Shown piece after piece: positions 1,950 to 16,363 of a DNA stretch of 64,000 bases (within the stretch, counting starts at the first letter, position 1; every line of letters begins with the position of its first letter). Location of the stretch: positions 1 through 64,000 of the forward strand of contig JAEUJM010000009.1 in NCBI GenBank assembly GCA_016794585.1, in the 5' to 3' direction. Under the pieces are notes generated by a model. It made no database searches and was not told where the DNA came from. It worked only from the letters and a program-made list of their open reading frames with translations. Source of the DNA: Acidimicrobiales bacterium (GTDB lineage Bacteria; Actinomycetota; Acidimicrobiia; Acidimicrobiales; DATDAH01). Both the position numbers and the translations under genes were made by a program.

Positions 1950-3077
1950 GTGGCTGACATCGATAGAGCAACGAACGCGGACGCCGACGACCCCAGGGAC
2001 CGGCCCGGAGTCGATCGACGGGTGTTCATCGGCATGGTCGCCGCCGGCGCCGGTGGTGCCGCGCTGGTGGGTGCGACCGCCGCTGCGGCGTGGCCCACGA
2101 GAGCGCCAGAGGAGCCATCGTCGGCCAGGACGGCGGCGACGTCGACCACGATGGTGATGGACAGTTCGGGGACGACGGGCATGGCGGGGTCCGGCATGTC
2201 CGACGCCGACATGAACGCATCGTCTGAAGCCAAGGTCGGCCAGTTCCTCGACAACGCCGCGTCGCCCATCACCGCGGGGCAGGGGGCGACCGACCTCGAA
2301 TGGCGGACCGTGAACGGCGTCCGCGTGTTCGAGCTCACCTGCGAGGAGATCGAATGGGAGGTCACTCCCGGTGAACGTATAGCGGCCATGGGGTACAACG
2401 GCATCGTCCCGGGTCCGACCCTGCGGGTCGTCGAAGGTGAGCCCGTGCGGGTCGTGGTCCGCAACGAGCTGACCCAGAGCACGTCGGTGCATTGGCACGG
2501 GCAGCGAGTGCCCAACGACCAGGACGGGGTTCCGTACGTGACCCAGCCACCGATCCTCCCCGGCGAGTCATACACCTACGAGTTCACGCCGGGACCGTTC
2601 GGCAGCCACATGTACCACTCCCACCACAACGCCACCGAGCAGGTGGGCAAGGGTTTGTTGGGCGCTCTGCTCGTCGAGCCAGCCGAGCGCGGCTCCGAGC
2701 CCGCGTATGACAAGGACGAGCTCTACATCCTCAACGACTCACTGGGTGGCTTCACGATCAACGGCAAGGGGTTCCCGGCGACGGCCCCCTACACGGCCGG
2801 GCTTGGCGACCGGATCCGGTTCCGCTTCATGAACGAGGGCCAGATGGTGCACCCCATCCACCTCCACGGCCTCACACTCGAGGTGTTCGCCCGAGATGGC
2901 TATCTGCTGCCGCAGCCGTTCCGTTGCGACACGATCACCGTGGCCCCCGGTGAGCGCTGGGACGCGATCGTCGTTGCTGACAGTCCTGGTGTCTGGGCCT
3001 TCCACTGCCACATCCTCAGCCACGCGGAGCGACCAGACGGCATGTTCGGCATGGTCACCGCCCTCATCGTCGAGTAG
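1950..3077 (+). CDS. Tat-exported multicopper oxidase (laccase/CueO-like)
   Basis: A 375-residue multicopper oxidase, expected to oxidise Cu(I) or phenolic/metal substrates outside the cytoplasmic membrane with reduction of oxygen. A twin-arginine type signal (RRVFIG at 23-28, then an alanine/glycine-rich stretch) precedes a methionine/serine/threonine-rich linker. All four copper-binding motifs are present: HWHG 181-184, HMYHSHH 220-226, HPIHLHG 301-307 and HCHILSHAE 352-360, giving type 1, 2 and 3 sites. It is shorter than three-domain laccases (about 500), so a two-domain or compact type is likely. The start is GTG at 1950, with GGGAAG 9-14 bases upstream. Its neighbour 8 bases downstream is a cupredoxin, and the wider setting is a metal-resistance island. 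Confidence 0.9.
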   Translation: MADIDRATNADADDPRDRPGVDRRVFIGMVAAGAGGAALVGATAAAAWPTRAPEEPSSARTAATSTTMVMDSSGTTGMAGSGMSDADMNASSEAKVGQFLDNAASPITAGQGATDLEWRTVNGVRVFELTCEEIEWEVTPGERIAAMGYNGIVPGPTLRVVEGEPVRVVVRNELTQSTSVHWHGQRVPNDQDGVPYVTQPPILPGESYTYEFTPGPFGSHMYHSHHNATEQVGKGLLGALLVEPAERGSEPAYDKDELYILNDSLGGFTINGKGFPATAPYTAGLGDRIRFRFMNEGQMVHPIHLHGLTLEVFARDGYLLPQPFRCDTITVAPGERWDAIVVADSPGVWAFHCHILSHAERPDGMFGMVTALIVE

Positions 3078-3085
3078 GAGCACCG

Positions 3086-3556
3086 ATGACAGCGATCCCC
3101 CCGGACCGACCGGAGCAGGCGGCGGTCACTCGTGGCCGACCCGGGCTCAACACCGAAACGCTCGCGTTGGCGGGGGTGTTCATCGCCGCCTTCGCCTTCC
3201 TGGCCGCGATCTTCGCCGTCGGCCTGGCGGCGCGAGCGGTCGAGGAGGTCGATCACGCCGGCGGCAACGGTGGGGCGGCGCCGGCTACCGGTGCCGAGGC
3301 CGTGCCCGTGTCGCTGGAGGAGTTCGCCATCACACCCGGCGAGGTCGATGTGCCGGCAGGGGCCGTGCTGAACATCAGCAACGAAGGCACGGTGGTCCAC
3401 AACCTCAGTGTCGATGGGATCGCATCGGAGATGGTGGACGGTGGGGCAACGACCGAGCTCGATCTGGGATCACTCGCTCCCGGGACCTACGCCATGAAGT
3501 GTGATGTCCCCGGTCATGCCGAGGCAGGGATGACCGGGACGCTCACGGTGAGCTGA
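3086..3556 (+). CDS. Membrane-anchored cupredoxin-domain protein
   Basis: A 156-residue protein with one N-terminal membrane segment (about 25-48, LALAGVFIAAFAFLAAIFAV) followed by a plastocyanin/azurin-like copper domain. Type 1 copper ligands are visible: His in VVHNLS, then Cys, His and Met in KCDVPGHAEAGM. It starts 8 bases after the multicopper oxidase stop, with TAGGAG as ribosome-binding site, so the two are almost certainly co-transcribed. By analogy with cupredoxin-oxidase pairs it could pass electrons to the oxidase or hold periplasm-side copper; that partnership is inferred from the gene pair only. Confidence 0.88.
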   Translation: MTAIPPDRPEQAAVTRGRPGLNTETLALAGVFIAAFAFLAAIFAVGLAARAVEEVDHAGGNGGAAPATGAEAVPVSLEEFAITPGEVDVPAGAVLNISNEGTVVHNLSVDGIASEMVDGGATTELDLGSLAPGTYAMKCDVPGHAEAGMTGTLTVS

Positions 3557-3694: not shown

Positions 3695-4351
3695 TCATGC
3701 TGTGTAGCGGCCGGGGTCGGACGCGAATGCTCCTGCGCACTCGAGTGAGCAGAACATGTGCTCGTGATCGTCGTGGCGAAGGCGGCCCGGCGCCGATCGG
3801 CGGTCGACGGCCATGTGGCAGACCGGATCGATGACCCGGTCCGGCACCGTGGGGCACGCCATGACCTCGTAGAGCGCCACCGGTTCTCGGACGTTGCGGA
3901 GCCGTTCGATCCCGAGCGGTCGGGTCTCGAACCCGGCAGTCGATGCAACTGCGGCGACTCCTTCGGTCGCCAACACCTGGTCACCAGCGGCGCGTGCCGC
4001 CACCCTCGCGGCGAGGTTCACCGCGCCGCCGAACCAGTCGCCGTCTCGTTCGAGCGCGGGGCCGGTGTGGAGTCCGGCGCGCAAGACCGGGAAGGCCGGC
4101 TCCTGGTCCAATGCGGAACAGATGGCGCCGACGGCTCTGACCGCGTCGACTGGATCTGTCGAGACGAGCATCACCGCATCACCGATGGACTTCACCAGCT
4201 GATCCGTCGAACCCAACGCTGCCTGGGTGACTTCCACCAGGCGATGTGCGAGCTCCACTGCCGCGAAATCGCCGTGCACCTCGGTCGCGAGGGTGAAGCC
4301 GGCGAGGTCGACGAACGCGAACGTCCGATGCTGTGACGGGGGAGTGGTCAT
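3695..4351 (-). CDS. Class III adenylate/guanylate cyclase fused to a YHS metal-binding domain
   Basis: A 218-residue cytoplasmic protein with two parts. Residues 8-165 are a class III nucleotide cyclase catalytic domain: metal aspartates Asp15 (FVDLAGFT) and Asp58 (KSIGDAVML), with Asn112 and Arg116 in GAVNLAARVAAR for transition-state binding, so it looks catalytically competent. Residues 172-218 form a YHS-type domain (DPVCHMAV, then FCSLECAGAF) with Cys178, Cys201 and Cys205 as likely metal ligands. YHS domains are common in heavy-metal ATPases and mercury/copper proteins. The ATG at 4351 overlaps the CPBP protease stop by four bases (ATGA). I infer a metal-sensing cyclase; the cyclic nucleotide made and the metal bound are unknown. 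Confidence 0.85.
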   Translation of the reverse strand: MTTPPSQHRTFAFVDLAGFTLATEVHGDFAAVELAHRLVEVTQAALGSTDQLVKSIGDAVMLVSTDPVDAVRAVGAICSALDQEPAFPVLRAGLHTGPALERDGDWFGGAVNLAARVAARAAGDQVLATEGVAAVASTAGFETRPLGIERLRNVREPVALYEVMACPTVPDRVIDPVCHMAVDRRSAPGRLRHDDHEHMFCSLECAGAFASDPGRYTA

Positions 4352-5079
4352 CGGACGAGCGCCGCCGTCGCGAGGAGGGACGCCACGGCGACGCCGTTGA
4401 ACCCGATGTGGGCCCAGATCGCAGGACCCAGTCGGCCCGTCCGCACGGTCAGGGTCGCGAACACGAGGCCGGCGGTTGCGAGGGCGGGGAACTGCGCGAA
4501 TTGGAGGTGGATGGCTCCGAAGAGCATGGAGGTGGTGGCGACGGCCCAGGCAGTCCCAAACCGCTTCTCAACGCTTCGAAGCAGCAGGCCGCGGAAGAAC
4601 AGCTCCTCGACGATCGGCGCTCCGATGACGACGATCGCAATGAGGAGCACGGTGCCGGCGGGGTCCGTCGCTCGATCGGTCAGCTCTCGAGCGGGAGCGG
4701 AGAGGTCCTGTTTGCCCGTGAGCCAGAAGATCGGGACGTAGAGGAGCGGGATGAGCGCGACCTGTGTTGCGACGCCGATGACCAGCCCGATCGGCACGTC
4801 GGTCCACCGCATGCGGAAGCCGAAGTCGGCCATCACACCGTTGCCTTTCGTGCGCGCCGCCCACAGTGGCGCGCCGAGGTACCCCAGCCACAGGGGTACC
4901 TGGAGGGCTGCAACGATGGTGAGGGGCAGGTCGTCGGTGTCGGTCGCGTCATAGCCCGTCGCAGCGAGGATGAGTCCTCCGCCGACGACCGCGCACACAT
5001 TGGCGAGCAACAGTCCGGCGGCCGCATCGCCCAACCCCCAACGAGGGGCACGGGCTTCACTTGGCGTTGAAGGCGGCAT
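4348..5079 (-). CDS. CPBP-family intramembrane metalloprotease
   Basis: A 243-residue polytopic membrane protein of the CPBP (CAAX protease and bacteriocin-processing, 'Abi') family. The family motifs are present: Glu158-Glu159 and Arg163 in VEELFFRG, His191 in FGAIHL, and His224/Asn228 in HIGFN; these coordinate the catalytic metal in homologues. About seven hydrophobic segments are visible. It lies 46 bases downstream of the VKOR-like gene and overlaps the cyclase-YHS gene, so it likely belongs to the same minus-strand operon. The substrate is unknown; processing of a membrane protein of this metal island is a guess. Confidence 0.85.
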   Translation of the reverse strand: MPPSTPSEARAPRWGLGDAAAGLLLANVCAVVGGGLILAATGYDATDTDDLPLTIVAALQVPLWLGYLGAPLWAARTKGNGVMADFGFRMRWTDVPIGLVIGVATQVALIPLLYVPIFWLTGKQDLSAPARELTDRATDPAGTVLLIAIVVIGAPIVEELFFRGLLLRSVEKRFGTAWAVATTSMLFGAIHLQFAQFPALATAGLVFATLTVRTGRLGPAIWAHIGFNGVAVASLLATAALVR

Positions 5080-5125
5080 CAGCGGCTGCGCTCCCGGAGG
5101 ATTGGGACGTGCGGTGGGGCGGCGA

Positions 5126-5737
5126 TCACAGCAGAGTCGACCAGTAGTTCCAGAACCGGCGGGCGATGAGTCCCGCGATCGCCAGGTACCAGATGGTGAG
5201 GATGACGCCGTGGTAGGTGGTCGCGAGTCGGACGATCGGGGTGAAGCGACTGCGCTCGAGCGCGGGTGAGCTCTGGGCGAGGTGCAGCGCCGTGTACAAG
5301 AACAGGGGAATGGTCACGACCCACACGACCATGCAGTAGGGGCAGAGTGCGCCGATGCGGTAGAGGCTCTGGAAGATCAGCCAGTGCACGAACACCAGGC
5401 CTGCGACGGTGCCGGTGAGAAGGCCTCGCCAGTACCAGCGCCGGAACGCCGCACCGGCCACCATCGCGACACCGGTCGTGACGACGACCGGGAAGGCCGC
5501 TACGCCGATGAGCGGGTTGGGGAACCCGAACGCCTCGGCCTGGCTGGTACGCATGATCGAGCCGCAGCTGAGGATCGGGTTGATGCTGCAGCTCGGCACG
5601 TAGGTCGGGTCTTCCAGCAGCGCGACCTTCTCGATCAGCAGCACCACCGCAGCGATCAGACCGATGGCGCCGCCGATCATGTACAGCCACGTCAGGCGCC
5701 GATCGGCGTCCTCGAGTTCAGCAGACGTCACGGTCAC
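5126..5737 (-). CDS. Vitamin K epoxide reductase (VKOR)-family protein
   Basis: A 203-residue integral membrane protein with VKOR features: the loop cysteine pair Cys50 and Cys58, and the active CPYC motif (Cys132, Cys135) at the end of a membrane helix. Bacterial VKORs reoxidise DsbA-like thiol oxidases and pass electrons to quinone. The DsbA-like gene lies only 6 bases upstream, which supports exactly this partnership. Five or so membrane segments are visible. It would drive disulfide formation outside the membrane, perhaps for cysteine-containing metal proteins exported from this island. Confidence 0.9.
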   Translation of the reverse strand: MTVTSAELEDADRRLTWLYMIGGAIGLIAAVVLLIEKVALLEDPTYVPSCSINPILSCGSIMRTSQAEAFGFPNPLIGVAAFPVVVTTGVAMVAGAAFRRWYWRGLLTGTVAGLVFVHWLIFQSLYRIGALCPYCMVVWVVTIPLFLYTALHLAQSSPALERSRFTPIVRLATTYHGVILTIWYLAIAGLIARRFWNYWSTLL

Positions 5738-5743
5738 GCAGAG

Positions 5744-6391
5744 TCACTGGGCCAACGCTTCGTCGATCTGAGCGGTGAGATCCTCGAAACTGGAGATCTC
5801 CATCTTCTCCCCGTTCAGGAAGAACGACGGCGTTCCCTCGACCCCGAGCGCCTGCCCGTCCGCCTGGTCCTGCTCGATCCTCTCGAGGATGGCGGGGTCG
5901 TCGTAGTCCGCAGCGAACTGGTCCATGTCCAGCCCGAGATCCTCGGCGTACTGGAAGAAGAGCTCCTGCTTGGATTCGGATTGTTCGCCCCAGTCCGCCT
6001 GGGTCTCGAAGAGCATGGAGTACATCTCGTCGAACTTGCCCTGTTCGGCGGCGGCCTCGGCGGCGCGGGCTGCGGCTTCGGAGTTGTTGTGCAACGGAAA
6101 ATTGCGCACGACGAAGGTGACCCGTCCGTCGTACGTCTCGCGGAGCGCTTCGATGGCCGGGTAGGCCGCGCCGCACGCCTCGCACTCGTAGTCGAGGAAC
6201 TCGACGAAGGTGACCTCGCCGTCCTCGGCGACCGACAACCTCTGGCTGTCCTCTCGTACGACCTGCGCCGCCGGTTCACCCGAGCCGCTCGCTGGCGCTG
6301 GGGTGCGGTCGCCGCTCGTGTTGGCCACGAACACGAGCACCAGTCCGGCGGCGAGGACGAGCCCCAGCGGGATCTTGACGTTCCGCGTCAT
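5744..6391 (-). CDS. DsbA-like membrane-anchored thiol:disulfide oxidoreductase
   Basis: A 215-residue protein with an N-terminal membrane anchor (about 7-24) and an extracellular thioredoxin fold of the DsbA type. The redox motif is Cys70-Glu-Ala-Cys73 in FLDYECEACG, and the cis-proline loop is GTPSFFLNG near the C-terminus. Its ATG at 6391 overlaps the P-type ATPase stop (ATGA), and the VKOR gene follows after 6 bases. DsbA/VKOR form the oxidative folding pair of actinobacteria; placing it in a heavy-metal operon suggests local use, or replacement of thiols damaged by metals (inference). Confidence 0.9.
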   Translation of the reverse strand: MTRNVKIPLGLVLAAGLVLVFVANTSGDRTPAPASGSGEPAAQVVREDSQRLSVAEDGEVTFVEFLDYECEACGAAYPAIEALRETYDGRVTFVVRNFPLHNNSEAAARAAEAAAEQGKFDEMYSMLFETQADWGEQSESKQELFFQYAEDLGLDMDQFAADYDDPAILERIEQDQADGQALGVEGTPSFFLNGEKMEISSFEDLTAQIDEALAQ

Positions 6392-8856
6392 GTGTCAGGC
6401 TCCTTGTCGGGGGATGGAACGGACGGCACTGCAGGTCGGTAGGCGAGCAGGCGGAGCGCGTTGGCGACCACCACGAGGGTGGAGCCCTCGTGGAACACCA
6501 CGGCCGGGCCGATGCCGACAAAGCCGATGAGCGTGGCGGGGATGAGGAACGTCACCATGCCGAGGCTGAGGAAGAGGTTCTGGCGGATGACGCCGCTCGC
6601 CTTGCGGCTGAGTCCGATCACGACCGGGAGCTTCGAGAGGTCATCGCCCATCAGGGCGATGTCGGCGGTCTCGAGAGCGACGTCTGACCCGGCGGCCCCC
6701 ATGGCGATGCCGACGGTGGCGTGGGCGAGCGCGGGCGCGTCGTTGACCCCGTCGCCGATCATCGCGACCTTGCCCTCTTCGTCGCGCAGCCGTTCGATGG
6801 CGGTGACCTTGTCCTCGGGCATGAGGTCGCCCCAGGCATCGGTCAGGCCGACGTCCCCAGCGATGGCATCGGCGACCTGCTGGCTGTCACCCGACAGCAT
6901 GATGGCTCGCCGGATGCCGACTGACTGCAGGGCGAGCACCGCCTGGCGGGCCCCGGGGCGCGGGGTGTCGCGGACGCCGAGGACCCCGAGGAATCGGTCG
7001 TCCTGCTTGACGATCATGATCGTGCGGCCGTTGGCGTTGAGCCAGCGCACCTCGTCTGCCACCGCTTGCGGGAGCCCGCCGTTCTCCTCGAACAGCGCGA
7101 CGTTGCCGATGAGGACCGATGTGGCGCCGACCGTCGCCCGCACCCCCCGGCCGGTGATGGCCGTGACCTGACTCGCCGTCAAGGACGACTCTCCTTCGAG
7201 TTCGGCGCCACCATCGCGGACGATGGCCGCCGCCAGTGGATGGTCGCTGCGCTCCTCGACGGCCACGGCCACCGCCAGCAGCTCGGCATGGTCGACGCCT
7301 TCGGCGGGCGCCACATCGGTCAGCTTCGGGCGTCCTTCGGTGAGGGTGCCGGTCTTGTCGAAGGCGATGGCGCGGAGCGTGCCCAGGTGCTCGAGCGGGC
7401 CACCACCTTTCACCAGCACCCCGAGCTGGCCGGCGCGGCCGACCGCCGCCAGCACGGCGCTGGGGGTTGCGATGGCCAGCGCGCAGGGGCTGGCCGCGAC
7501 GAGCACGGCCATCGCACGGTAGAACGACTCGGCGAGCGGCGATCCGAGCGCGGCGCCGATGATCAGCACCCCGACCACGAGGACGAGCACGGCGGGTACG
7601 AAGATGCGCTCGAACCGATCGGTGAACTGCTGTGTCGGCGACGCCTGGGTCTCGGCCTCCCGAACCATGGTGGCCAGCTTCGAGAGCGTCGAGTCCTTGG
7701 TGAGGCGCGTCACCTGGGCATCGAGTTGCCCGGCGCCGTTGATGGTGCCCGCGAACAGCCGTGACGACGCCGGAACGGCCTCGGGTGACGCCGCAGCCGT
7801 GGCCGGATCGCGGACGGGCACCTTGTCGACGGGGATGCTCTCGCCGGTGAGCGGTGCCTGGTTGACGCTGCTGGTGCCGGCGACGACGAACCCATCGGCG
7901 GGTATGCGTTCGTTGGGCTTGACGATCACGACATCGCCCAGGCTCAGTTGCTCGACGGGGATCTCGCGTTCGTCGGTCCCGGCCCGCACGGTGGCGGTCT
8001 TCGGGGCCAATTCGCCGAGCGCTTCGATGGCGCGACGCGCCCGGCCCATGGCGTAGCCCTCTAGGGCGTGGCCGAGGCTGAACAGCGCCAGCAGGAGCGC
8101 ACCCTCTTCCCACTTGCCGAGCGCAGCGGCGCCTGCGGCGGCGACCAGCATCAGAAAGTCGATCTCGAACCGGCGGTTGCGGACGCTCTCGAGGGCCTCA
8201 CGGGCCGTGAAGTAGCCACCGAATACACCGGCGGCGATGAACAACAGGGTCAGGGCCGTTTCGCTCAGGTCGGTGGCCAGCTCGAGCACGAAGCCCACCG
8301 TCCACAGTGCGGCCGAGGTGATGGCGAAGACCAGTTCGCTGCGCTCCCCGAACGGTCCGCCGTGGTCGTGCTGGCCCTTTGGATGGTCGTGGGCTTCGGG
8401 GTCTTCGCCGGGAGCCTGGACCTTGACGCCGCGCCTCTGCAACGCCTCGCGTAGCGCCCCGTCGTCGAGCCGCGTGCGGTCGAACTCGACCATCACGAGC
8501 CCTGGGGCGACGTCAGCCTCGATCACGCCCTCGATGCGGCCGAGCGCCTCCCTCACCGAGCGGGCCTTGCGGACGTGGCCGATGCCGGTGACGGGCCACA
8601 ACACGTGCCCGAACTGGTCGGTGATCGATGCACCGGCGCCCGTGGCCAACGAGCGGATCCGAGCCATGCTCGTGACCGCGGGGTCGTAGTGCAGACACAG
8701 CCGGGCGGGTGCCCCGTCGGCCGCCTCGATGACGTGCACCTGGTCCAGACCTGATGCGCCGGTGAGGGTACTCGTCAGCCGGTCGACGCACCGGTCCCGC
8801 CCGTCGAGGGCATCTGGCAGCAGCACCGGCAGGTCCAGCATCGCCTTCTCGCTCAT
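6388..8856 (-). CDS. Heavy-metal-translocating P1B-type ATPase
   Basis: An 822-residue metal-exporting ATPase. Two degenerate N-terminal ferredoxin-like segments (about 10-150) lack CXXC; a histidine-rich stretch (HDHPKGQHDH, 156-165) follows. The core shows TGES 337-340, the intramembrane SPC motif 456-458, the phosphorylation site DKTGT 500-504, the HP locus (SDHPLA), GDGVNDAP, and HEGST in the last helix pair. SPC with HEG(S/G)T is the pattern of Zn/Cd/Co-type rather than CPC copper pumps, so a divalent metal is favoured. The frame is open far upstream; I chose the ATG at 8856, preceded by AGGAG at 5-9 bases. It heads the DsbA-VKOR-CPBP-cyclase run. Confidence 0.92.
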   Translation of the reverse strand: MSEKAMLDLPVLLPDALDGRDRCVDRLTSTLTGASGLDQVHVIEAADGAPARLCLHYDPAVTSMARIRSLATGAGASITDQFGHVLWPVTGIGHVRKARSVREALGRIEGVIEADVAPGLVMVEFDRTRLDDGALREALQRRGVKVQAPGEDPEAHDHPKGQHDHGGPFGERSELVFAITSAALWTVGFVLELATDLSETALTLLFIAAGVFGGYFTAREALESVRNRRFEIDFLMLVAAAGAAALGKWEEGALLLALFSLGHALEGYAMGRARRAIEALGELAPKTATVRAGTDEREIPVEQLSLGDVVIVKPNERIPADGFVVAGTSSVNQAPLTGESIPVDKVPVRDPATAAASPEAVPASSRLFAGTINGAGQLDAQVTRLTKDSTLSKLATMVREAETQASPTQQFTDRFERIFVPAVLVLVVGVLIIGAALGSPLAESFYRAMAVLVAASPCALAIATPSAVLAAVGRAGQLGVLVKGGGPLEHLGTLRAIAFDKTGTLTEGRPKLTDVAPAEGVDHAELLAVAVAVEERSDHPLAAAIVRDGGAELEGESSLTASQVTAITGRGVRATVGATSVLIGNVALFEENGGLPQAVADEVRWLNANGRTIMIVKQDDRFLGVLGVRDTPRPGARQAVLALQSVGIRRAIMLSGDSQQVADAIAGDVGLTDAWGDLMPEDKVTAIERLRDEEGKVAMIGDGVNDAPALAHATVGIAMGAAGSDVALETADIALMGDDLSKLPVVIGLSRKASGVIRQNLFLSLGMVTFLIPATLIGFVGIGPAVVFHEGSTLVVVANALRLLAYRPAVPSVPSPDKEPDT

Positions 8857-8944
8857 CGTTGGTCTCCTGTCCGTTCGGATGAGTTCGCCGCTGCCGATGA
8901 CCAGCCCGAGACGCTCACCCCGACTGCTTCCATAGGACGGGCGA

Positions 8945-9106
8945 GTGAGTGGATTCCTGATGGCCCACCAGGGTGGTTGGGATGAGCTGATCGTGGTCGG
9001 TGTCCCGGTCCTGGCCTTCGGGGCGCGGCTGATGGTCGCGAACCGTCGCGCCGCGTCCCTCGAGGCCCGTCGTGCGGAAGAGGGCGGCGAGCCAGGCGAG
9101 CACTGA
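8945..9106 (+). CDS. Small single-span membrane protein
   Basis: A 53-residue protein in the gap between the two large minus-strand operons: MSGFLMAHQGGWDE followed by LIVVGVPVLAFGARLMVANRR and a charged tail. One membrane helix is clear. GTG at 8945 has AGGACGG just upstream; the in-frame ATG at 8960 is the alternative. Short proteins with an 'HQGGWDE' start and one helix sit next to copper genes in other actinobacteria as far as I recall, but no function is known. It is divergent from the P-type ATPase (88 bases shared upstream) and ends one base before the convergent lipoprotein gene. Confidence 0.6.
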   Translation: MSGFLMAHQGGWDELIVVGVPVLAFGARLMVANRRAASLEARRAEEGGEPGEH

Positions 9107-10099
9107 TCACGCCGTGACCTCGTCAACCGCGGCCTGCAGGTCGGCGTCGGTGGCGACGTTGTCCCAGCGCTCGATAACGGTGCCATCGGGCCCGATGAGG
9201 AACACCCACGGCTCGTGGATGTCGTTGCCTTCCTGGTTCGGGTAGATCCACTCTGCGGCACCGCGGTTGAGCACGTTGCGCTCGTAGTCGCGCCACACCT
9301 CGATGTGGATGAACGCCACGTCGTCGCCCGTCTCGGCGGCGAGCGTATCGACGCTGTCGGTGATGGGGCCGCAGAAACGACTCACACAGAACACCGGCGT
9401 CGACACCACCACGAGCGCCGGGCGGCCCGAAGCAATCGCCTGAGCCACGGTCTCGCTGTGCAGCTCGGGGTCGGGCACGGTCCCGTCGGGTTCAGCGCGC
9501 GAATCGATCGCCTTCACGGGCGCGTCGGGGTCACCGGGCAAGAGGTTCTCGGTTCGGGGCGCGGGATCGCCGACGTTGGGGATGTCGCTCTCGGCGGCGA
9601 CTTCGAAGTTCGCCGTCGCTGTGGCGTCGCCGCCGGGGAGGTCCGCGGTGACCTCGACTTCCCAGATGCCGGCGTCGGCGAACTCGACACCGTCGGCCCC
9701 GTAGACCCCAGCGCCGTCGGATGGCTCGCCGAGGCGCGGCCCCGGCGTCTGGAGATCGATGGCCTGACCGGGGATCGGGCGGAAGTCGGCCGTGAGGGCC
9801 GGGCCTTGCTCCGGGGTGTCGAGGGGCTCGTCGGACGTTCCGAGGTAGGAGAAGGCGAACTCGACGTCGCCGAAGGAGACCAGGTTGTTGTCGTTGTCGA
9901 GCAAGCCGACGATGATCCGCTGCGGCCGTTCGGTCGTGAGGTCGTAGCTGGCGACCTGGGCGACGAGCGAGGAGGTTCCGACGTCAGCGGCCTCGGCTTC
10001 CTCGACGGACTCGTCATTCCCCGAACCGCTCGAACAACCGGCCGCGATGATGGCCGCACACAGCAGGGTGCCCAGTCGGGCGCGGGTGTGGATGGTCAT
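9107..10099 (-). CDS. Lipoprotein with C-terminal thioredoxin-like (Sco-like) domain
   Basis: A 330-residue exported lipoprotein: signal peptide ending in the lipobox AAGC near residue 21, then an acidic linker. A beta-rich middle domain (about 45-190) is followed by a thioredoxin-fold domain with the cysteine pair in FCVSRFCGPITD. Such 'CxxxxCGP' domains resemble Sco/peroxiredoxin-like proteins used in copper delivery or thiol reduction outside the membrane. The ATG at 10099 overlaps the stop of the upstream membrane protein (ATGA), which fixes the start over the longer frame from 10123. It is the last gene of the CmtR-CopC run. Metal chaperone or thiol reductase is an inference. Confidence 0.82.
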   Translation of the reverse strand: MTIHTRARLGTLLCAAIIAAGCSSGSGNDESVEEAEAADVGTSSLVAQVASYDLTTERPQRIIVGLLDNDNNLVSFGDVEFAFSYLGTSDEPLDTPEQGPALTADFRPIPGQAIDLQTPGPRLGEPSDGAGVYGADGVEFADAGIWEVEVTADLPGGDATATANFEVAAESDIPNVGDPAPRTENLLPGDPDAPVKAIDSRAEPDGTVPDPELHSETVAQAIASGRPALVVVSTPVFCVSRFCGPITDSVDTLAAETGDDVAFIHIEVWRDYERNVLNRGAAEWIYPNQEGNDIHEPWVFLIGPDGTVIERWDNVATDADLQAAVDEVTA

Positions 10100-11598
10100 G
10101 GTTGGTCTGCTTCCTCGGCGCACGCCGATGGTGGGTTCTCGTCGGTGACGTCCAACGCTCGTCGCATGGTCGGCGCGAGTTGTGCGAGATCGGTCGCGAG
10201 TTGTGGTGATCGACCGCTGAGCGATGACTCGACCTTCTGTTTGGCTTCGAGCAGTTCAGCTGCCGCCGCGCGGTCCTGCTCGGCTGCGTCTGCGGCCAGC
10301 TGGTGGAGCGCGTCGTGCGCTTCGTCGGTGAAGATCCGGCGTGCGGCATCAGCGTTGCCCCCTCGTGCCTCACGCAGCGCGTCGCACACCGCGCCATGGG
10401 CCGCGGTTGTTGATTCTGTGCCGTTGTCATCACCCTGGTCGAAGGTGAGGACTGCAAGCCCGAACGCGGCGGCCGCGACCCAGCAAACCAGCAGGAGGAA
10501 GATCCTGCGGTGTCGCTTCACATCGCCGGTGAGGGCCCCGGTGAGGGCCGGGGCTCGGCGAACCGGGGGTCGGGATGGTCCCGGTGCGCGTCGCAGCTTC
10601 GGGAAGCGGATGGCTGTCAAGCCGAGGATCCCGACCGCGACGCCGAGTGAGGCGCTGACGGTCAGTCGGGCCACCGCCGGGGACAGTGCCGTCGGCAGCT
10701 GCGAGCGGCTCAGCCAGTCCAGGTTGGCAACACCGAAGAGCAGCCCGAAGCTGGTGGCACTTGCCGCTGAGAAGATCAGCGCCTCGCGTGGCGCCCGCCG
10801 CAGTTGCGTGACGGACACGATGGCGATGGCCGCCGTCGTCAAGGGTGCGCCGAGTCCGCCGAGCTTGGCCAACGTTGGCTCTGCTGTCTCCGCCCAGACA
10901 CCGATCGCATCCAGGCCCGCGCCGATGAGCAACACGACCATCCCCGCGGCTACCGCCCATCGCCAACGCTGGCTCAGCCCGGCGAGGGTGAACCCTGCGG
11001 CGAGGGCCACCCCCAGGAGGTAGTGGGGCCAAGGCGACGGTCCGGGCACCCAGAGGAGGTCACCCGACACCTCGACGGTCTCGTCGCCGACGTCGATGGG
11101 GACGACCCAGGTCGGGATGACGACGTGCTGCGACCCCGGATCGTTCACCACAGCAGGGGGATCGCCGCCCATCCAATGCGCCCGGTGATCGTGCCAACGC
11201 GCCACTTGTCCGGTGTCGATGCGCTGCCAGTCGGGCGGAGCGTCGGCATCGGCTTCCGGGGGGATGGCGGTGGATGCCTGTCGGGAACGGTTGAGGTAGG
11301 TGGCGGGCGAGCGGAGGTTCTCGAAGACACCGTCGTCGTTGATGCGAAGGAACGGTTCGTCCTCGTAGCCCCGGACAATGACCTCTTCGCCGGTGTGATT
11401 GGCGAGCTCGAGGCGGGCCCCGGCTTCGATCACGCGGATCTCGAGCCCGGCGACCTCAGGGCTCACCTCGAGGATGCGCGTGCGGTAGTTCGTGCCCCCT
11501 GGATCGTCGCCTCCCGGGCCGCCGTGGGCGGCGGCCGGCGAGGCAAGCCCGAGAAGGGCCGCCAAGACCGCTGCGACGCCGACGGTGAGGCGTCTCAC
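10096..11598 (-). CDS. Multi-span membrane protein of the copper operon, unknown function
   Basis: A 500-residue protein: signal peptide ending SPAAAHGG, an extracellular beta-rich domain of about 200 residues containing a histidine cluster (ARWHDHRAHWMG), and about six membrane helices (around 215-390). A C-terminal extracellular helical segment carries two cysteines. The GTG at 11598 overlaps the upstream stop (GTGA), which is preferred over the upstream open frame. The position between CopC-CopD and the thioredoxin-like lipoprotein, with coupled starts on both sides, makes a role in copper handling likely. The His cluster could bind metal. No family was recognised with confidence. Confidence 0.72.
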   Translation of the reverse strand: MRRLTVGVAAVLAALLGLASPAAAHGGPGGDDPGGTNYRTRILEVSPEVAGLEIRVIEAGARLELANHTGEEVIVRGYEDEPFLRINDDGVFENLRSPATYLNRSRQASTAIPPEADADAPPDWQRIDTGQVARWHDHRAHWMGGDPPAVVNDPGSQHVVIPTWVVPIDVGDETVEVSGDLLWVPGPSPWPHYLLGVALAAGFTLAGLSQRWRWAVAAGMVVLLIGAGLDAIGVWAETAEPTLAKLGGLGAPLTTAAIAIVSVTQLRRAPREALIFSAASATSFGLLFGVANLDWLSRSQLPTALSPAVARLTVSASLGVAVGILGLTAIRFPKLRRAPGPSRPPVRRAPALTGALTGDVKRHRRIFLLLVCWVAAAAFGLAVLTFDQGDDNGTESTTAAHGAVCDALREARGGNADAARRIFTDEAHDALHQLAADAAEQDRAAAAELLEAKQKVESSLSGRSPQLATDLAQLAPTMRRALDVTDENPPSACAEEADQP

Positions 11599-12206
11599 TC
11601 GTGTTGCTCCTTCGCTGGTCCCTGCCGCTGTGCGTCGGCGTCGCGCAACCCGCGCACGCGTCGAGCAACCAGGAACGCTGCGCTGGCGAGCACAAGGAGG
11701 ACGGTCACGAAGATGATGGTCCCGGCCTTCGTGCCATCGCCGCTGTCGGCTGCCGGTGCGATCGTCGCAGCCGGCGTCACCTCGGAGGTGGTCGACGGAG
11801 CCGCGGTCGACGTGGTGGGGGGTGGATCCATCTGCTGGGGGACCTCGAGGGTGGCTTCCGGGCTGACGGCGGTGAATCGGACAGTCCACCTGCCGGGGTC
11901 CGGGAACTCGACGGTTGCTGCGAAGCGGCCGTCGTCATCGACCGGTTCGAGGGCCACCGGTGTCTGCGTGGATCCGTCGTCGCCCACCGCAACCGCCGTC
12001 ATCGTCGTGTCCGCAGCAGCAGCGGGGTGGCCGTCGTTGTCCCAGATCAGCCGGACCACGTACCGGACGGAAGCATCGGAGGCTGGGTCGGCGGACTCGA
12101 CGGAAATCGTGCCGCCCCCTTCGTGCGCGGCGACGGACGAGACGGGCGCCAACAGCACAAACCCGATTGCGAGGACCACGAGGGTGGAACGCCGGCGATT
12201 GATCAT
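11595..12206 (-). CDS. Secreted, C-terminally anchored protein with immunoglobulin-like domain
   Basis: A 203-residue protein: signal peptide (1-26, ending VAAHEGG), a beta-sandwich-like domain to about residue 125 (pattern DGRFAATVEFPDPGRWTVRF), a threonine/serine/proline linker, one membrane helix (about 163-181), and a basic cytoplasmic tail. The fold hint and the phrase 'PDPGRWTVRF' resemble YtkA/FixH-like and CopC-associated domains. Starts and stops overlap by four bases on both sides with CopC-CopD and the large membrane protein. A histidine follows the predicted signal cleavage site, which in CopC proteins is a copper ligand; here this is only suggestive. Confidence 0.72.
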   Translation of the reverse strand: MINRRRSTLVVLAIGFVLLAPVSSVAAHEGGGTISVESADPASDASVRYVVRLIWDNDGHPAAAADTTMTAVAVGDDGSTQTPVALEPVDDDGRFAATVEFPDPGRWTVRFTAVSPEATLEVPQQMDPPPTTSTAAPSTTSEVTPAATIAPAADSGDGTKAGTIIFVTVLLVLASAAFLVARRVRGLRDADAQRQGPAKEQHE

Positions 12207-13822
12207 CGAATTGGTACCTCGACCGTGTAGGTGGACGTCTGACCTTCCTGGACCGCGGTGACCGTCAGGGTCCAGGTTCCCGGCGTGGTCAGTGATGCGC
12301 CGTAGCTCGAGAAGTGACTTGGGGTGATGGCCTCGATGTCGAGGCGTCTCGGATTGATCTGATCGGTGCCCGCTTTCATCTCGACCGCGTCAACGGGCAC
12401 GAGGCTCTGTCCCGCTTCGTCGAAGAAGTACAGGTGGATGTCGTTCTGGCCCACACGCGCGGGTGTCACGGTGATGTCCAGGCGTGTGGCGCCGCCGTCG
12501 GCTTGTGCGGAGGCCGCGAAGGGACGACTCACCGAATCGCGGCCGGGGGGTTGGTTCACCAGCGCAGCGGTGAACGCCAGCACGATGACGGCGAGGACGA
12601 CCTCGGCCTTGACGAAGCGAATCAGGATCTGGGATGACCGCTCGGTCCACGAGGACAACAGGGCGCGGTTGAGCGACCCGATGATGACGAGCGCCGCGAA
12701 GCCAACGAGCTTGACGATCAGCAGTTGCCCGTATCCCGTGTTGATCAGTGCGTCGAACGACCGCAGCTGCCAGAACGCAGATATCGAACCGCTGACGGCC
12801 ACCACGGCCACCGTCAAGACCGCCGTCTTCGAGAAGCGCCGCGCCACGGCGGCCTCGTCGTCCGCCGCTCTCAGCGAGCAGCCGAGGGCGAACAGGCCCC
12901 CGACCCACACACCGACCGCGACCAAGTGGATCAAGTCGGAACCGACGGCGACCCACCGCGGAGAGGTCGTCCAGGCGTGTCCTGACAACGGCCACGTGAC
13001 CATGGCACACACGACGAGGCCCCCGGCGACCCAGGGCCGCTTCGCCCACAGGGCACCGATCGCCGCTGCGCCTCCCGCGGCCGCCAGCAGCACAACCCGC
13101 GCCATGGTCAGACGACCGGACCGCGTCTCGCTGGCGATGTCGCGGATGATGGCGATCGAGTCGAGCAGGGACCGGCCTGCCACGTCAGCGGTCTGGGCGA
13201 CGAGCACCACCGCCGTAGCAACGGCCGCGGTACCTGCCCCGGCCATCACGATCAGCCGTAGACGGCGACGGACAGCGGTCTCACCGGGATTGGCGGACGC
13301 GAGCACCGCCGCGCCCAACGCCACCAGCGCACCGGCGTACGCAGCCCATCGGGCGAACCCGCCGACAACATCGGTGACCGTGTTCGCATCGTCGCTGATG
13401 TCGGCCCCGCCGGTCTCGGTGCCGACGTGGAACACGAAGGATCCCGAGAGGTTGTGGCTGTCCTCACTCAGGACACGCCACGACACCGTGTAGGTCCCCT
13501 GCGTCCCAGGATCGTCGATCGTCGCCAGGACGACGCGGCCGCCGTCACGCGTCTCGGCCAGGCCACGGTCCACCCGGTCACCCGACGGACCGAACACGCG
13601 GACCCCGCCGTCGACCACCTCCACGCCCTCGTCGAACTCGAGTCGGACCTCCACCGGGACGCGGTCGAGCAACTCGTCAGCCGAGGGATTGGTGGCGACG
13701 AGCGTCGCGTGCGCAGACACCGGGGCGGCCATCGGGCCGAGCAAGGCGACCAGCGCGGAAGCGCAGACGGACAACGCGAGGCAGACAACCCGCGCGAAGG
13801 CGGGCGCGCCGAGTTTGGACAC
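12203..13822 (-). CDS. CopC-CopD fusion copper resistance protein
   Basis: A 539-residue fusion. After a signal peptide, the mature protein would begin at His38 (SAHATLVATNPS), the N-terminal copper ligand of CopC; the CopC beta-barrel runs to about residue 135 and ends in LSGSFVFHVG. CopD follows with about eight membrane helices (150-420) and conserved histidines (DLIHLVAVGVWVGG), then a C-terminal extracellular beta domain. CopC/CopD bind copper outside the membrane and import or buffer it. GTG at 13822 with AGGAG upstream is preferred to the longer open frame, which lacks a signal peptide. It overlaps the next gene by ATGA. Confidence 0.9.
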   Translation of the reverse strand: MSKLGAPAFARVVCLALSVCASALVALLGPMAAPVSAHATLVATNPSADELLDRVPVEVRLEFDEGVEVVDGGVRVFGPSGDRVDRGLAETRDGGRVVLATIDDPGTQGTYTVSWRVLSEDSHNLSGSFVFHVGTETGGADISDDANTVTDVVGGFARWAAYAGALVALGAAVLASANPGETAVRRRLRLIVMAGAGTAAVATAVVLVAQTADVAGRSLLDSIAIIRDIASETRSGRLTMARVVLLAAAGGAAAIGALWAKRPWVAGGLVVCAMVTWPLSGHAWTTSPRWVAVGSDLIHLVAVGVWVGGLFALGCSLRAADDEAAVARRFSKTAVLTVAVVAVSGSISAFWQLRSFDALINTGYGQLLIVKLVGFAALVIIGSLNRALLSSWTERSSQILIRFVKAEVVLAVIVLAFTAALVNQPPGRDSVSRPFAASAQADGGATRLDITVTPARVGQNDIHLYFFDEAGQSLVPVDAVEMKAGTDQINPRRLDIEAITPSHFSSYGASLTTPGTWTLTVTAVQEGQTSTYTVEVPIR

Positions 13823-13868
13823 AGGTGCTCCTGTCGAACGAGGCCGCCGAAGCGGCGAAAGCGGCGGT

Positions 13869-14420
13869 TTAGGCCGCCAGCGGTGGGCCTCGTCTCGACA
13901 GGGACCAGACGGACACCTCGAAAGAACCGCGGGGAACGATGGAGCGGCCCCACCGCCGACGTGCGTGACCGCGCGGCAGCGCTGGCCGCGGTGCACGAAC
14001 GATCAAACCTACCCGGTGTGAAGCCCGCACGATGAGGACGATCAGCCAGGCCACGACGAGCTGCCCCGCGAGCCCACAGAGCACGGCGGGTTCGGCGAGA
14101 GTGGCCCAAGCCCCGATCCCCGCCGACGAGTGCTCGATCAGCTCAACCGAGAGGAACAGCGTGATCTGGGCGAGCGCGAGAAGGCTGAAGCGCACCGGTG
14201 GCAGCTCGTCCCGCAACCCACTGAGAAAGCCTCGTACGAGCACCGCCGCGGTGAGCGGGACGGCCACGAAGAGCAGATCTCCGACGTAGCCATGATGTGA
14301 GGAAGTGGCTGGCGACGCACCCAACGCGCCAGCCAACGCGTACCCCAGCACGTGACCTGCCGCCATCCCTCCCGGGATGAGCAGCAACGTCCACACGCGA
14401 GGCAGGCGCATCGACCTCAA
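13869..14420 (-). CDS. Hypothetical membrane protein of the copper operon
   Basis: A 183-residue protein with about four hydrophobic helices (roughly 10-28, 48-65, 76-92, 106-133) and a basic C-terminal tail. A histidine pair (SSHHGY) lies in the first loop. I do not recognise a family. Its ATG at 14420 overlaps the stop of the preceding frameshifted gene (ATGA), and CopC-CopD begins 46 bases after its stop, so it was built into this operon. The arginine-rich tail from about residue 135 is compositionally odd and may reflect a shifted or extended 3' end. Confidence 0.6.
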   Translation of the reverse strand: MRSMRLPRVWTLLLIPGGMAAGHVLGYALAGALGASPATSSHHGYVGDLLFVAVPLTAAVLVRGFLSGLRDELPPVRFSLLALAQITLFLSVELIEHSSAGIGAWATLAEPAVLCGLAGQLVVAWLIVLIVRASHRVGLIVRAPRPALPRGHARRRWGRSIVPRGSFEVSVWSLSRRGPPLAA

Positions 14421-14970
14421 CCTACTAGCACCTCAGGCCGCGCCGTCGGCGGTCGATGCACTGCGCTTGAGGAGGACGTGCAACGCCCAAACACGACCGC
14501 AGCCAGCAGAGTGGCGCCGACGACGGTCACCCATGTCGGGAGGTTTCGTTCCTGTGCGCGGCACGAGAACGCTGAGGACGTCCCGAGGGCGAGCGGTTGC
14601 GCCGACGAGATCGCCTCGGCAGCACCGATCGTCACCGGCACCACTAAGGACGCGGCGGGTCGGCGGCTTCCGCGACAGCCGTCCACGAGCCTGGTTCGGG
14701 GAGGTCGATGGTCGCCGAGCGCAGACCTTCATCCGAGTCGACCTCCATGGGCTGCACCGCACTTCCATCAGCTCCGAGGCCTGCGCAGTTACGGGAGCTG
14801 AGCCAGCATCGTGCTCGTCCGATGCGCCACGCACACCTGTACGAAGAGTTGCAGCTCACCGGGCGTGCTCGAATCCACCAGCTGAATGGCGCCAGAGCGC
14901 CATGGGCGCCGGCTCGCATCGGTGCCAGGACACCCACCAGCGACATGCCGCCAACGCTGATTACCAGCAT
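14417..14970 (-). pseudogene. Frameshifted secreted protein with C-terminal membrane anchor
   Basis: Parts of one gene are spread over three frames. From ATG 14970 there is a signal peptide ending RAGAHGALAPF; the next frame reads IQLVDSSTPGELQLFVQVC; the first frame resumes with VDSDEGLRSATIDLPEPGSW; a third frame gives VVPVTIG and a membrane helix (LPTWVTVVGATLLAAVVFG). That last frame ends with a TGA overlapping the next gene's ATG. This is the same plan as the gene at 11595-12206 (signal, histidine, beta domain, helix). At least two or three single-base changes are needed to restore it, so it is probably dead; clustered sequencing errors are possible. Confidence 0.6.
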
Positions 14971-15008
14971 CGCCCCCGCCGACCAGTGGCGGGAGCGCCC
15001 AAGCTCGC

Positions 15009-15635
15009 TCAGCAGCAGTCCTCCCCCTTCCAGGCCTCGCGCCCCTCCTTCACCGCTAGGCCCGCGATGACGAGCGCGGCGACAGGATCAGCCCACCACC
15101 ACCCCACCGTGGCGTTGAGCAGAAGTCCGATCAACAGGACAGCCGACAGGTACGTGCACAAGAAGGTCTCGGCGGCGTCGGCAACCAGTGTGCGCGACCC
15201 CAGCGCCGTGCCTGTGCGGCGCTTCATCACGGCCAGCGCGGGCATGACCACCAATGACACCGCGGCCAGAGCGATCCCTACCGTCGAGGTGGCGGCTTCA
15301 CCGGCACCGAGCAGGTCCAACACGGACTGCACGCCGACGTAGGCCGCGAGCAGGAAGAAGCTGACCGCGATGAGCCTTAGCGCCGACCTCTCTCTCCGCT
15401 CATCGACACCGTGGCGCTGCTCTGCCCGGAACTGCCAGACGATCACCGACGCGCTGCCGACCTCCACCGCAGAGTCGAGACCAAAGCCCACCAGGGCGAT
15501 CGAACCGGCCGCAGCACCCGCACCGACAGCGATCACGCACTCGACCACGTTCCACCCGATGGTGGCGTAGGCCAACCGAAGCCCTCGTCGACGAAGCGCT
15601 GCCTCACTGTCGGCGTGGGGTTCGGTCGCTGTCAT
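15009..15635 (-). CDS. Cation-efflux (CDF-like) transporter
   Basis: A 208-residue membrane protein with five or six helices, similar to the membrane domain of cation diffusion facilitators. GFGLDSAVEV corresponds to the metal-site helix (HxxxD-type, here with Asp retained), and a second site-like segment is TLVADAAETFLC. The cytoplasmic C-terminal domain of classical CDFs is absent; the protein ends in GEDCC, a possible thiol metal ligand. It follows CmtR and DUF3703 in the same direction, 18 bases after the latter, so cadmium, lead or zinc export under CmtR control is the natural reading. Confidence 0.82.
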   Translation of the reverse strand: MTATEPHADSEAALRRRGLRLAYATIGWNVVECVIAVGAGAAAGSIALVGFGLDSAVEVGSASVIVWQFRAEQRHGVDERRERSALRLIAVSFFLLAAYVGVQSVLDLLGAGEAATSTVGIALAAVSLVVMPALAVMKRRTGTALGSRTLVADAAETFLCTYLSAVLLIGLLLNATVGWWWADPVAALVIAGLAVKEGREAWKGEDCC

Positions 15636-15653: not shown

Positions 15654-16019
15654 TCACCCACGCCGGTCAGCGTCATCAGCGTCGAGCAGGGCGGCGAGAT
15701 CTGACGGGACGGGCATGGCCCGGAAGGCCGAGACACGGGCCCGGCCCGTGTTGCCGACCGGGATGCGCCCCGCCAGTGAGCCCGGACCTGCGAGAACGGT
15801 GCGGTAGAGCTGGCCCGCGACCTCTCGAAGGTCCCGGGTGCGACACGCCAGCACGAGCATGGCCACATGGCACCGCACGTGGGGCCCAGCCCACGGCTGC
15901 GACAAGATGTGGGCCCGTTCGAGCGCGGCCCACGCGGCGTCGTTGTCCCAGGCGGCTCCCGCTGCTGCGATCTCGGAATCGAAGGCCGCACGAGCTGCCG
16001 TCGGCATCGTGGCCCTCAT
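15654..16019 (-). CDS. DUF3703 protein
   Basis: A 121-residue cytoplasmic protein matching DUF3703: AAWAALERAHILSQ, WAGPHVRCHVAML, and the closing VGNTGRARVSAFRAMPVPSDL are the family's hallmark. Homologues are found beside CmtR/ArsR regulators and cation transporters; the biochemical function is unknown. ATG at 16019 overlaps the CmtR stop by four bases, which is why the much longer upstream-open frame is rejected. Confidence 0.85.
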   Translation of the reverse strand: MRATMPTAARAAFDSEIAAAGAAWDNDAAWAALERAHILSQPWAGPHVRCHVAMLVLACRTRDLREVAGQLYRTVLAGPGSLAGRIPVGNTGRARVSAFRAMPVPSDLAALLDADDADRRG

Positions 16020-16363
16020 CGAGCGACGTCCTGTTGGCAATCGGGGTCGTCCACGAGCAACACGAGCCCGGCCAAGTCGGCGAGGGCGTGGGCCAGCCGG
16101 GGATCGGCGAGCTCGTACCGGACACGACGACCCTCCTGCGTCCCCACGACGAGCCCGCAACCCCGCAGGCAGCTCAGGTGATTTGAGACGTTGGCCTTGG
16201 TGAGGCCGAGCTCGGCCACCATCTCTGCCGGGTAATGGTGCCCATCCAGGATGGCGACGAGCAGTCGCCGACGGGTGTCGTCAGCCAGGGCACGCCCAAC
16301 TCTCGCCAGAGCATCCAGGTCGACAGAGACCGCAGGCACAGCGACAGATAGTACATCGTGCAC
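16016..16363 (-). CDS. cmtR: CmtR-like ArsR/SmtB-family metal sensor
   Basis: A 115-residue winged-helix repressor. The recognition region TKANVSNHLSCLRGCGLV is close to that of mycobacterial CmtR, the Cd(II)/Pb(II) sensor, and the three cysteine ligands are placed equivalently: Cys65, Cys69 (in the alpha4 helix) and Cys109 near the C-terminus. Without metal it should bind its own promoter; metal binding releases it. The GTG at 16363 lies inside a 7-bp-armed palindrome, suggesting a leaderless or nearly leaderless transcript and autoregulation. An internal GTG at 16342 is an alternative start. It heads the DUF3703-transporter-CopC run. Confidence 0.87.
   Translation of the reverse strand: MHDVLSVAVPAVSVDLDALARVGRALADDTRRRLLVAILDGHHYPAEMVAELGLTKANVSNHLSCLRGCGLVVGTQEGRRVRYELADPRLAHALADLAGLVLLVDDPDCQQDVAR

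Follow-up and report, generated by a model that had tools for sequence, protein, structure and literature searches.

Adenylyl cyclases that end in a YHS domain have a described representative in the AC-YHS protein of Mycobacterium phlei (EID14989.1), which has been purified and assayed and for which a role as a copper sensor was proposed (Linder 2015, PMC4626032). The protein is assigned to class IIIc, with a dimerisation arm of 7 residues and a linker of 8-11 residues; its catalytic domain alone requires Mn2+, and the full-length enzyme with Mg2+ is inactive until 1-10 uM Cu2+ is present, the activation acting through the YHS domain (PMC4626032). Zn, Fe2+, Fe3+, Cr, Co, and Ni did not substitute for Cu2+, Cd not being among the ions named there, and EDTA after pre-incubation abolished the activation by Cu2+ (PMC4626032). 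Residues D178, C181, C204, and C208 were put forward as candidate ligands, a rearrangement of the dimer on metal binding was suggested by Linder, and the physiological role was left open (PMC4626032). Twenty-six putative AC-YHS proteins were counted in 2015, including one of Candidatus Microthrix parvicella, and the article gives no gene neighborhoods (PMC4626032). Within the open-licence PMC literature, no work on YHS cyclases was found beyond the 2015 paper, nor any paper carrying its article number or combining adenylate cyclase, P-type ATPase, YHS, and operon; the 12 listed of 81 cyclase/cAMP papers contain no mention of YHS.

Two other kinds of described protein resemble one half of this architecture. 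The mycobacterial adenylyl cyclase Rv1264 is pH-sensing and, unlike AC-YHS, has an N-terminal regulatory domain and no YHS domain. The TRASH/YHS domains of ribosomal L24e, ZMYM5, monooxygenases, and copper ATPases have both the ligand pattern and the fold in common with AC-YHS but, unlike it, are not fused to a cyclase.

The window, by which we mean the whole 64,000-nucleotide stretch of Acidimicrobiales DNA analyzed here, encodes a further AC-YHS protein, whose gene comes last in a copper/heavy-metal operon. The features of this region are as follows, L111 being the second copy of the block in the same genome.

1950..3077, + strand: multicopper oxidase, convergent with the operon
3086..3556, + strand: cupredoxin, convergent with the operon
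3695..4351, - strand: AC-YHS, with a class III adenylyl cyclase domain spanning about residues 1-165 and a YHS domain at the C-terminus (about 173-216), from ORF, Pfam, alignment, and AlphaFold2
3698..3847, - strand: YHS segment used alone, with candidate ligands D175, C178, C201, and C205
4348..5079, - strand: CPBP/Rce1-like intramembrane protease (PF02517, 79.6 bits against a cut-off of 22.4)
5126..5737, - strand: VKOR-family thiol oxidase (150.6 bits)
5744..6391, - strand: DsbA-like thioredoxin-fold protein
6388..8856, - strand: heavy-metal P1B-type ATPase, assigned to P1B-4 by its SPC and HEGST motifs
9107..10123, - strand: secreted protein without a Pfam or NCBIfam family match; 78% identical copy in L111
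10096..11670, - strand: secreted or membrane protein without a Pfam or NCBIfam family match, start uncertain; 75% identical copy in L111
11595..12206, - strand: YtkA-like protein (24.2 bits against a cut-off of 25.9)
12203..13996, - strand: CopC-CopD fusion, copper homeostasis (CopC 72.5 and CopD 63.8 bits, both above cut-off)
15009..15635, - strand: cation efflux (CDF) protein
16016..16363, - strand: ArsR-family regulator

The AC-YHS frame (3695-4351, 218 aa) and the CPBP frame (4348-5079, 243 aa) overlap, as the sequence-only reading of this DNA had claimed, by the 4 bp ATGA, and the second protein contains EELFFR and FGAIH, which we take to be the CPBP motifs. That reading had also named Asp15, Asp58, Asn112, and Arg116 as catalytic residues and three cysteines in the YHS domain; all are present, and they are joined by K54 and D105, which complete the six catalytic positions, and by D175 beside C178, C201, and C205. 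In class III cyclases the positions of D15 and D58 bind the metal, those of K54 and D105 recognize the base, and those of N112 and R116 serve catalysis. The cyclase domain matches Guanylate_cyc at 30.4 bits against a cut-off of 21.9. The YHS match in the window protein (23.8 bits, E 4.4e-5) lies under the curated PF04945 cut-off of 30.3, and the assignment rests instead on the ligand set, the alignment, and the fold; across the aligned sequences, PF04945 matches at E <= 0.01 in 29 of 33, and the four ligands are invariant in all 33 rows. With the cyclase match ending at about residue 165 and the YHS domain starting at 173, the linker comprises some 7-8 residues, near the lower limit of the 8-11 given for AC-YHS, these boundaries being approximate, and the region before it shows no insertion or deletion in the alignment with four AC-YHS rows from mycobacterial plasmids (L129, L131, L136, and L137).

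AlphaFold2 modelled the whole protein with a mean pLDDT of 95.9 and a pTM of 0.90, and the YHS segment alone was predicted with values of 94.3 and 0.75. The closest solved catalytic domain is that of Rv1264 (1y10/1y11; Z 23.7, rmsd 1.8 over 164 residues, 37% identity), and the best 50 matches listed by Foldseek for the full model are cyclases only. For the YHS segment alone Foldseek returned no match at E <= 0.001; short structural matches, some of high probability, were to monooxygenase YHS domains, the TRASH domain of ZMYM5, and L24e, and phenol hydroxylase (E 6e-7) and ribosomal protein L24e (E 5e-4) are among the proteins that the YHS profile picks up. A chance match to YHS without cysteine conservation is ruled out by the ligands invariant in 33 of 33 rows, the alignment, the confident model of the segment, and these fold matches.

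The window protein has in common with the M. phlei enzyme a single class III domain, the six canonical residues, a short linker, and a C-terminal YHS domain; it is the shorter of the two (218 against 233 aa), and the ligand spacing D-x2-C-x22-C-x3-C (+3, +23, +4) is identical, D175/C178/C201/C205 here corresponding to D178/C181/C204/C208 there. The cyclase-YHS fusion is thus a known architecture, and the earlier supposition that no such fusion had been characterized was mistaken, since the same architecture and ligand spacing were described in 2015 in a purified, Cu2+-activated protein (PMC4626032). Unlike the M. phlei protein, the window copy belongs to an Acidimicrobiia-type genome, in which it lies in a CopCD/P1B-4/DsbA/VKOR/CPBP operon and is duplicated.

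Relatives were gathered by a genome scan, which yielded 60 loci. The search at the level of the order gave any cyclase match in 155 of 198 genomes, that of the phylum gave a match at E <= 1e-22 in 29 of 396 genomes, and tblastn of 50,697 phage records gave no match. In the plasmid collection 55 records matched, 40 of these over 80% or more of the query; 13 of the 55, picked for variety and not at random, were examined. The residue alignment held 53 rows. With two non-YHS cyclases beside L011 removed, and the two frameshifted pieces of L018 taken as one gene, there are 50 AC-YHS genes, that of the window among them; three plasmid loci examined separately stand outside this count. All ten key residues are retained in 42 of the 50, which rules out a decayed cyclase and answers the concern, raised with the original claim, that homologues might have lost cyclase residues. 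In the exceptions the N-terminal part is displaced or the frame broken (L017 and L125), the gene is frameshifted (L018) or cut by a contig end (L124), the last cysteine is displaced (L122), or the sequence is incomplete with one Cys replaced by Ser (L172). The remaining two are from Bacteroidota; in L019 the base-recognition Lys is replaced by Glu and D105 by Ala, and in L020 the Lys is replaced by Gln, so the substrate of these two proteins may differ.

The operon runs in the order CopC-CopD, YtkA-like, two family-less proteins, P1B ATPase, DsbA-like, VKOR, CPBP, and AC-YHS, which bears out the heavy-metal operon described in the sequence-only reading and extends it as far as CopC-CopD. A gap of about 250 bp ahead of the ATPase gene may hold a further promoter, and the block is flanked by the ArsR regulator, the CDF exporter, and integrase/transposase genes. 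The metal block occurs twice in the same genome, at 3702-15089 of the window and in L111 on contig 42, the two sharing four DNA blocks that are 74.6-83.9% identical and proteins that are 57.5-87.9% identical. In L111 the cyclase and CPBP genes are swapped, the cyclase gene following VKOR and preceding CPBP, or the reverse, and sharing an ATGA overlap with each. The genome encodes eight proteins with a cNMP-binding domain; 15 class III cyclase matches were also seen in it. The two family-less proteins (9107-10123 and 10096-11670) occur near AC-YHS in L120 and L128 as well as in L111.

Neighboring genes were counted in stop-to-stop frames by phmmer with the window proteins, using the 33 AC-YHS rows whose flanks exceed 3 kb on either side, and 20 non-YHS cyclase loci of the same order were fetched as controls, 18 of them scorable. 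A P1B ATPase lies within 4 kb in 15 of the 33 against none of the 18 (Fisher, all rows, p = 0.00036), the ten plasmid loci in the count having been chosen by hand and H1 after its ATPase was already apparent. Within the order alone the figures are 6/11 against 0/18 (p = 0.001) and, without the genome of the window, 4/9 against 0/18 (p = 0.007), both from counts by hand; because the rows are related, all of these p values serve as a guide only. DsbA-like genes (7/33) and CPBP genes (3/33) were counted within 5 kb of AC-YHS, and none of the three gene types was found near the 18 scored controls. A second control is less clean: of 36 rows of mycobacterial and other non-YHS cyclases from the genome scan, 14 have a P-type ATPase within 4 kb, so AC-YHS is not alone in its proximity to such an ATPase.

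The association of AC-YHS with metal genes is real beyond the window. On an Iamia plasmid the ATPase gene overlaps AC-YHS by 4 bp, and the same overlap is found on an M. rufum plasmid, followed by genes for an L,D-transpeptidase, CcdA, and cytochrome oxidase assembly. R. johnstonii pRL11 carries cueR, a P-type ATPase, and AC-YHS in succession, and R. johnstonii TP60 carries cueR, a broken ATPase, AC-YHS, an HMA protein, and a Crp/Fnr protein with a cNMP-binding domain. The ATPases beside the relatives are of several types. No metal gene was seen at the Ensifer plasmid AC-YHS locus or among the Pfam-annotated flanking genes of L009, L011, L013, and L015 (Thermoleophilia) and L019 and L020 (Bacteroidota).

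The window gene, for which domains, residues, conservation, operon, and context have been obtained, probably codes for a soluble AC-YHS-type adenylyl cyclase that is activated by metal, most likely copper, and whose cAMP reports metal load to tune the copper/heavy-metal operon. Cyclase activity, the identity of the metal, and a cAMP receptor in this organism are what we infer by analogy, the steps resting on residue identity with the M. phlei protein. A transition-metal ion, most likely copper, would bind D175, C178, C201, and C205; the metal-bound YHS domain would shift the cyclase homodimer to an active state using Mg-ATP; and the resulting cAMP would be the signal of metal load, with a Crp-type regulator as its probable receiver. 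As the last gene of the operon, AC-YHS would in this way tune the response carried by CopCD, the P1B ATPase, DsbA/VKOR, and CPBP. The metal-to-second-messenger sensor proposed earlier thus stands as the best reading, its presentation as undescribed being superseded by the M. phlei work (PMC4626032). Against a metal link weigh the 18 of 33 relatives without a P1B ATPase within 4 kb.

Copper is favored because of the nearby CopCD, multicopper oxidase, and cupredoxin genes and because of the M. phlei enzyme, but it cannot be taken as certain from context, the operon ATPase not being of the copper type. P1B-4 ATPases are defined by SPC and HEGxT motifs (PMC8880997), and the operon ATPase, with SPC and HEGST, passes the NCBIfam Cd-family model (479.9 against a cut-off of 313.5) and misses the Cu model (372.7 against 397), so the metal may be other than copper. 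That the same sensor is tuned to the cargo of this ATPase (Co, Zn, Cd, or Fe) is a rather unlikely alternative, favored also by the ArsR and CDF genes upstream and by mycobacterial plasmid relatives that adjoin ArsR genes and SPC-type ATPases; it has to contend with the copper genes of the same block and with an M. phlei enzyme that, with Mg2+, answered Cu2+ only, among named ions that do not include Cd (PMC4626032).

It is improbable that the YHS domain serves a structural or redox (disulfide) purpose instead of sensing metal. The best structural matches are indeed YHS folds of multicomponent monooxygenases, that of toluene-4-hydroxylase binding no metal according to the text of the 2015 article (PMC4626032), and DsbA and VKOR genes adjoin in the window; yet four candidate ligands are invariant, L24e, a metal-binding TRASH domain, is within reach of the YHS profile, and oxidation is argued against because EDTA abolished the activation of the M. 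phlei enzyme (PMC4626032). Equally improbable is a single working module of cyclase and CPBP protease, which the 4-bp overlap in the window and the overlaps on both sides of the cyclase in L111 would suit, since the gene order differs between those copies, other relatives have signal peptidase II or methyltransferases instead, and just 3 of 33 loci have CPBP within 5 kb, two of these being the copies in this genome; the link to an intramembrane protease claimed earlier holds for both copies here and loosely for L120, and a family-wide partnership is ruled out.

If the metal-activated cyclase is the correct reading, the presence of AC-YHS in metal-resistance operons and plasmids offers a testable answer to the physiological role left open by Linder, namely that cAMP would inform the efflux machinery of the metal load; apart from that question the window protein is an ordinary AC-YHS. 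More tentatively, AC-YHS could be a portable regulator of mobile metal-resistance islands in Actinomycetota and Rhizobiaceae, in which a P1B exporter and AC-YHS, sometimes with a cNMP receptor or a SAM methyltransferase, would form a local metal-to-cAMP circuit beside ArsR/CueR repressors, with the metal varying by island. That AC-YHS recurs in metal islands extends the 2015 description modestly, and no account of it was found in the open-licence PMC literature.

Several further arrangements were observed. A CPC/MxxSS copper-type ATPase lies within about 0.3 kb of a non-YHS cyclase, on the opposite strand, in 11 of 43 non-YHS cyclase loci scored in stop-to-stop frames, the 11 being from Mycolicibacterium/Mycobacterium genomes (L021-L026, L028, L029, L033, L044, and L048), the L021 cyclase having an N-terminal Ad_Cy_reg domain; these are possibly copper-linked cyclases without YHS. 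A CPC-type P-type ATPase that itself ends in a YHS domain (L018:831-3647) adjoins the frameshifted AC-YHS of that locus. The AC-YHS of L116 shows a weak N-terminal Ad_Cy_reg match, giving a three-domain form, and is convergent with a small cNMP-binding protein (L116:5361-5786 and L116:5839-7284). In 13 of 33 loci AC-YHS has, at most 2.5 kb away and on its own strand, a SAM methyltransferase gene without a specific family match (L011, L013, L018, L112, L116, L117, L129, L131, L132, L136, L166, L167, and L168, the window gene having none beside it), against 0/18 and 0/36 controls; the seeds were taken from AC-YHS loci, and without the four counted seed loci the figure is 9/29. Signal peptidase II genes are near AC-YHS in three of the 33 (L112:9072-9551, L119:8400-8870, and L018), and an isoprenylcysteine-methyltransferase-like gene lies on the same strand in six (L115, L129, L136, L137, L167, and L168), each with an ArsR gene.
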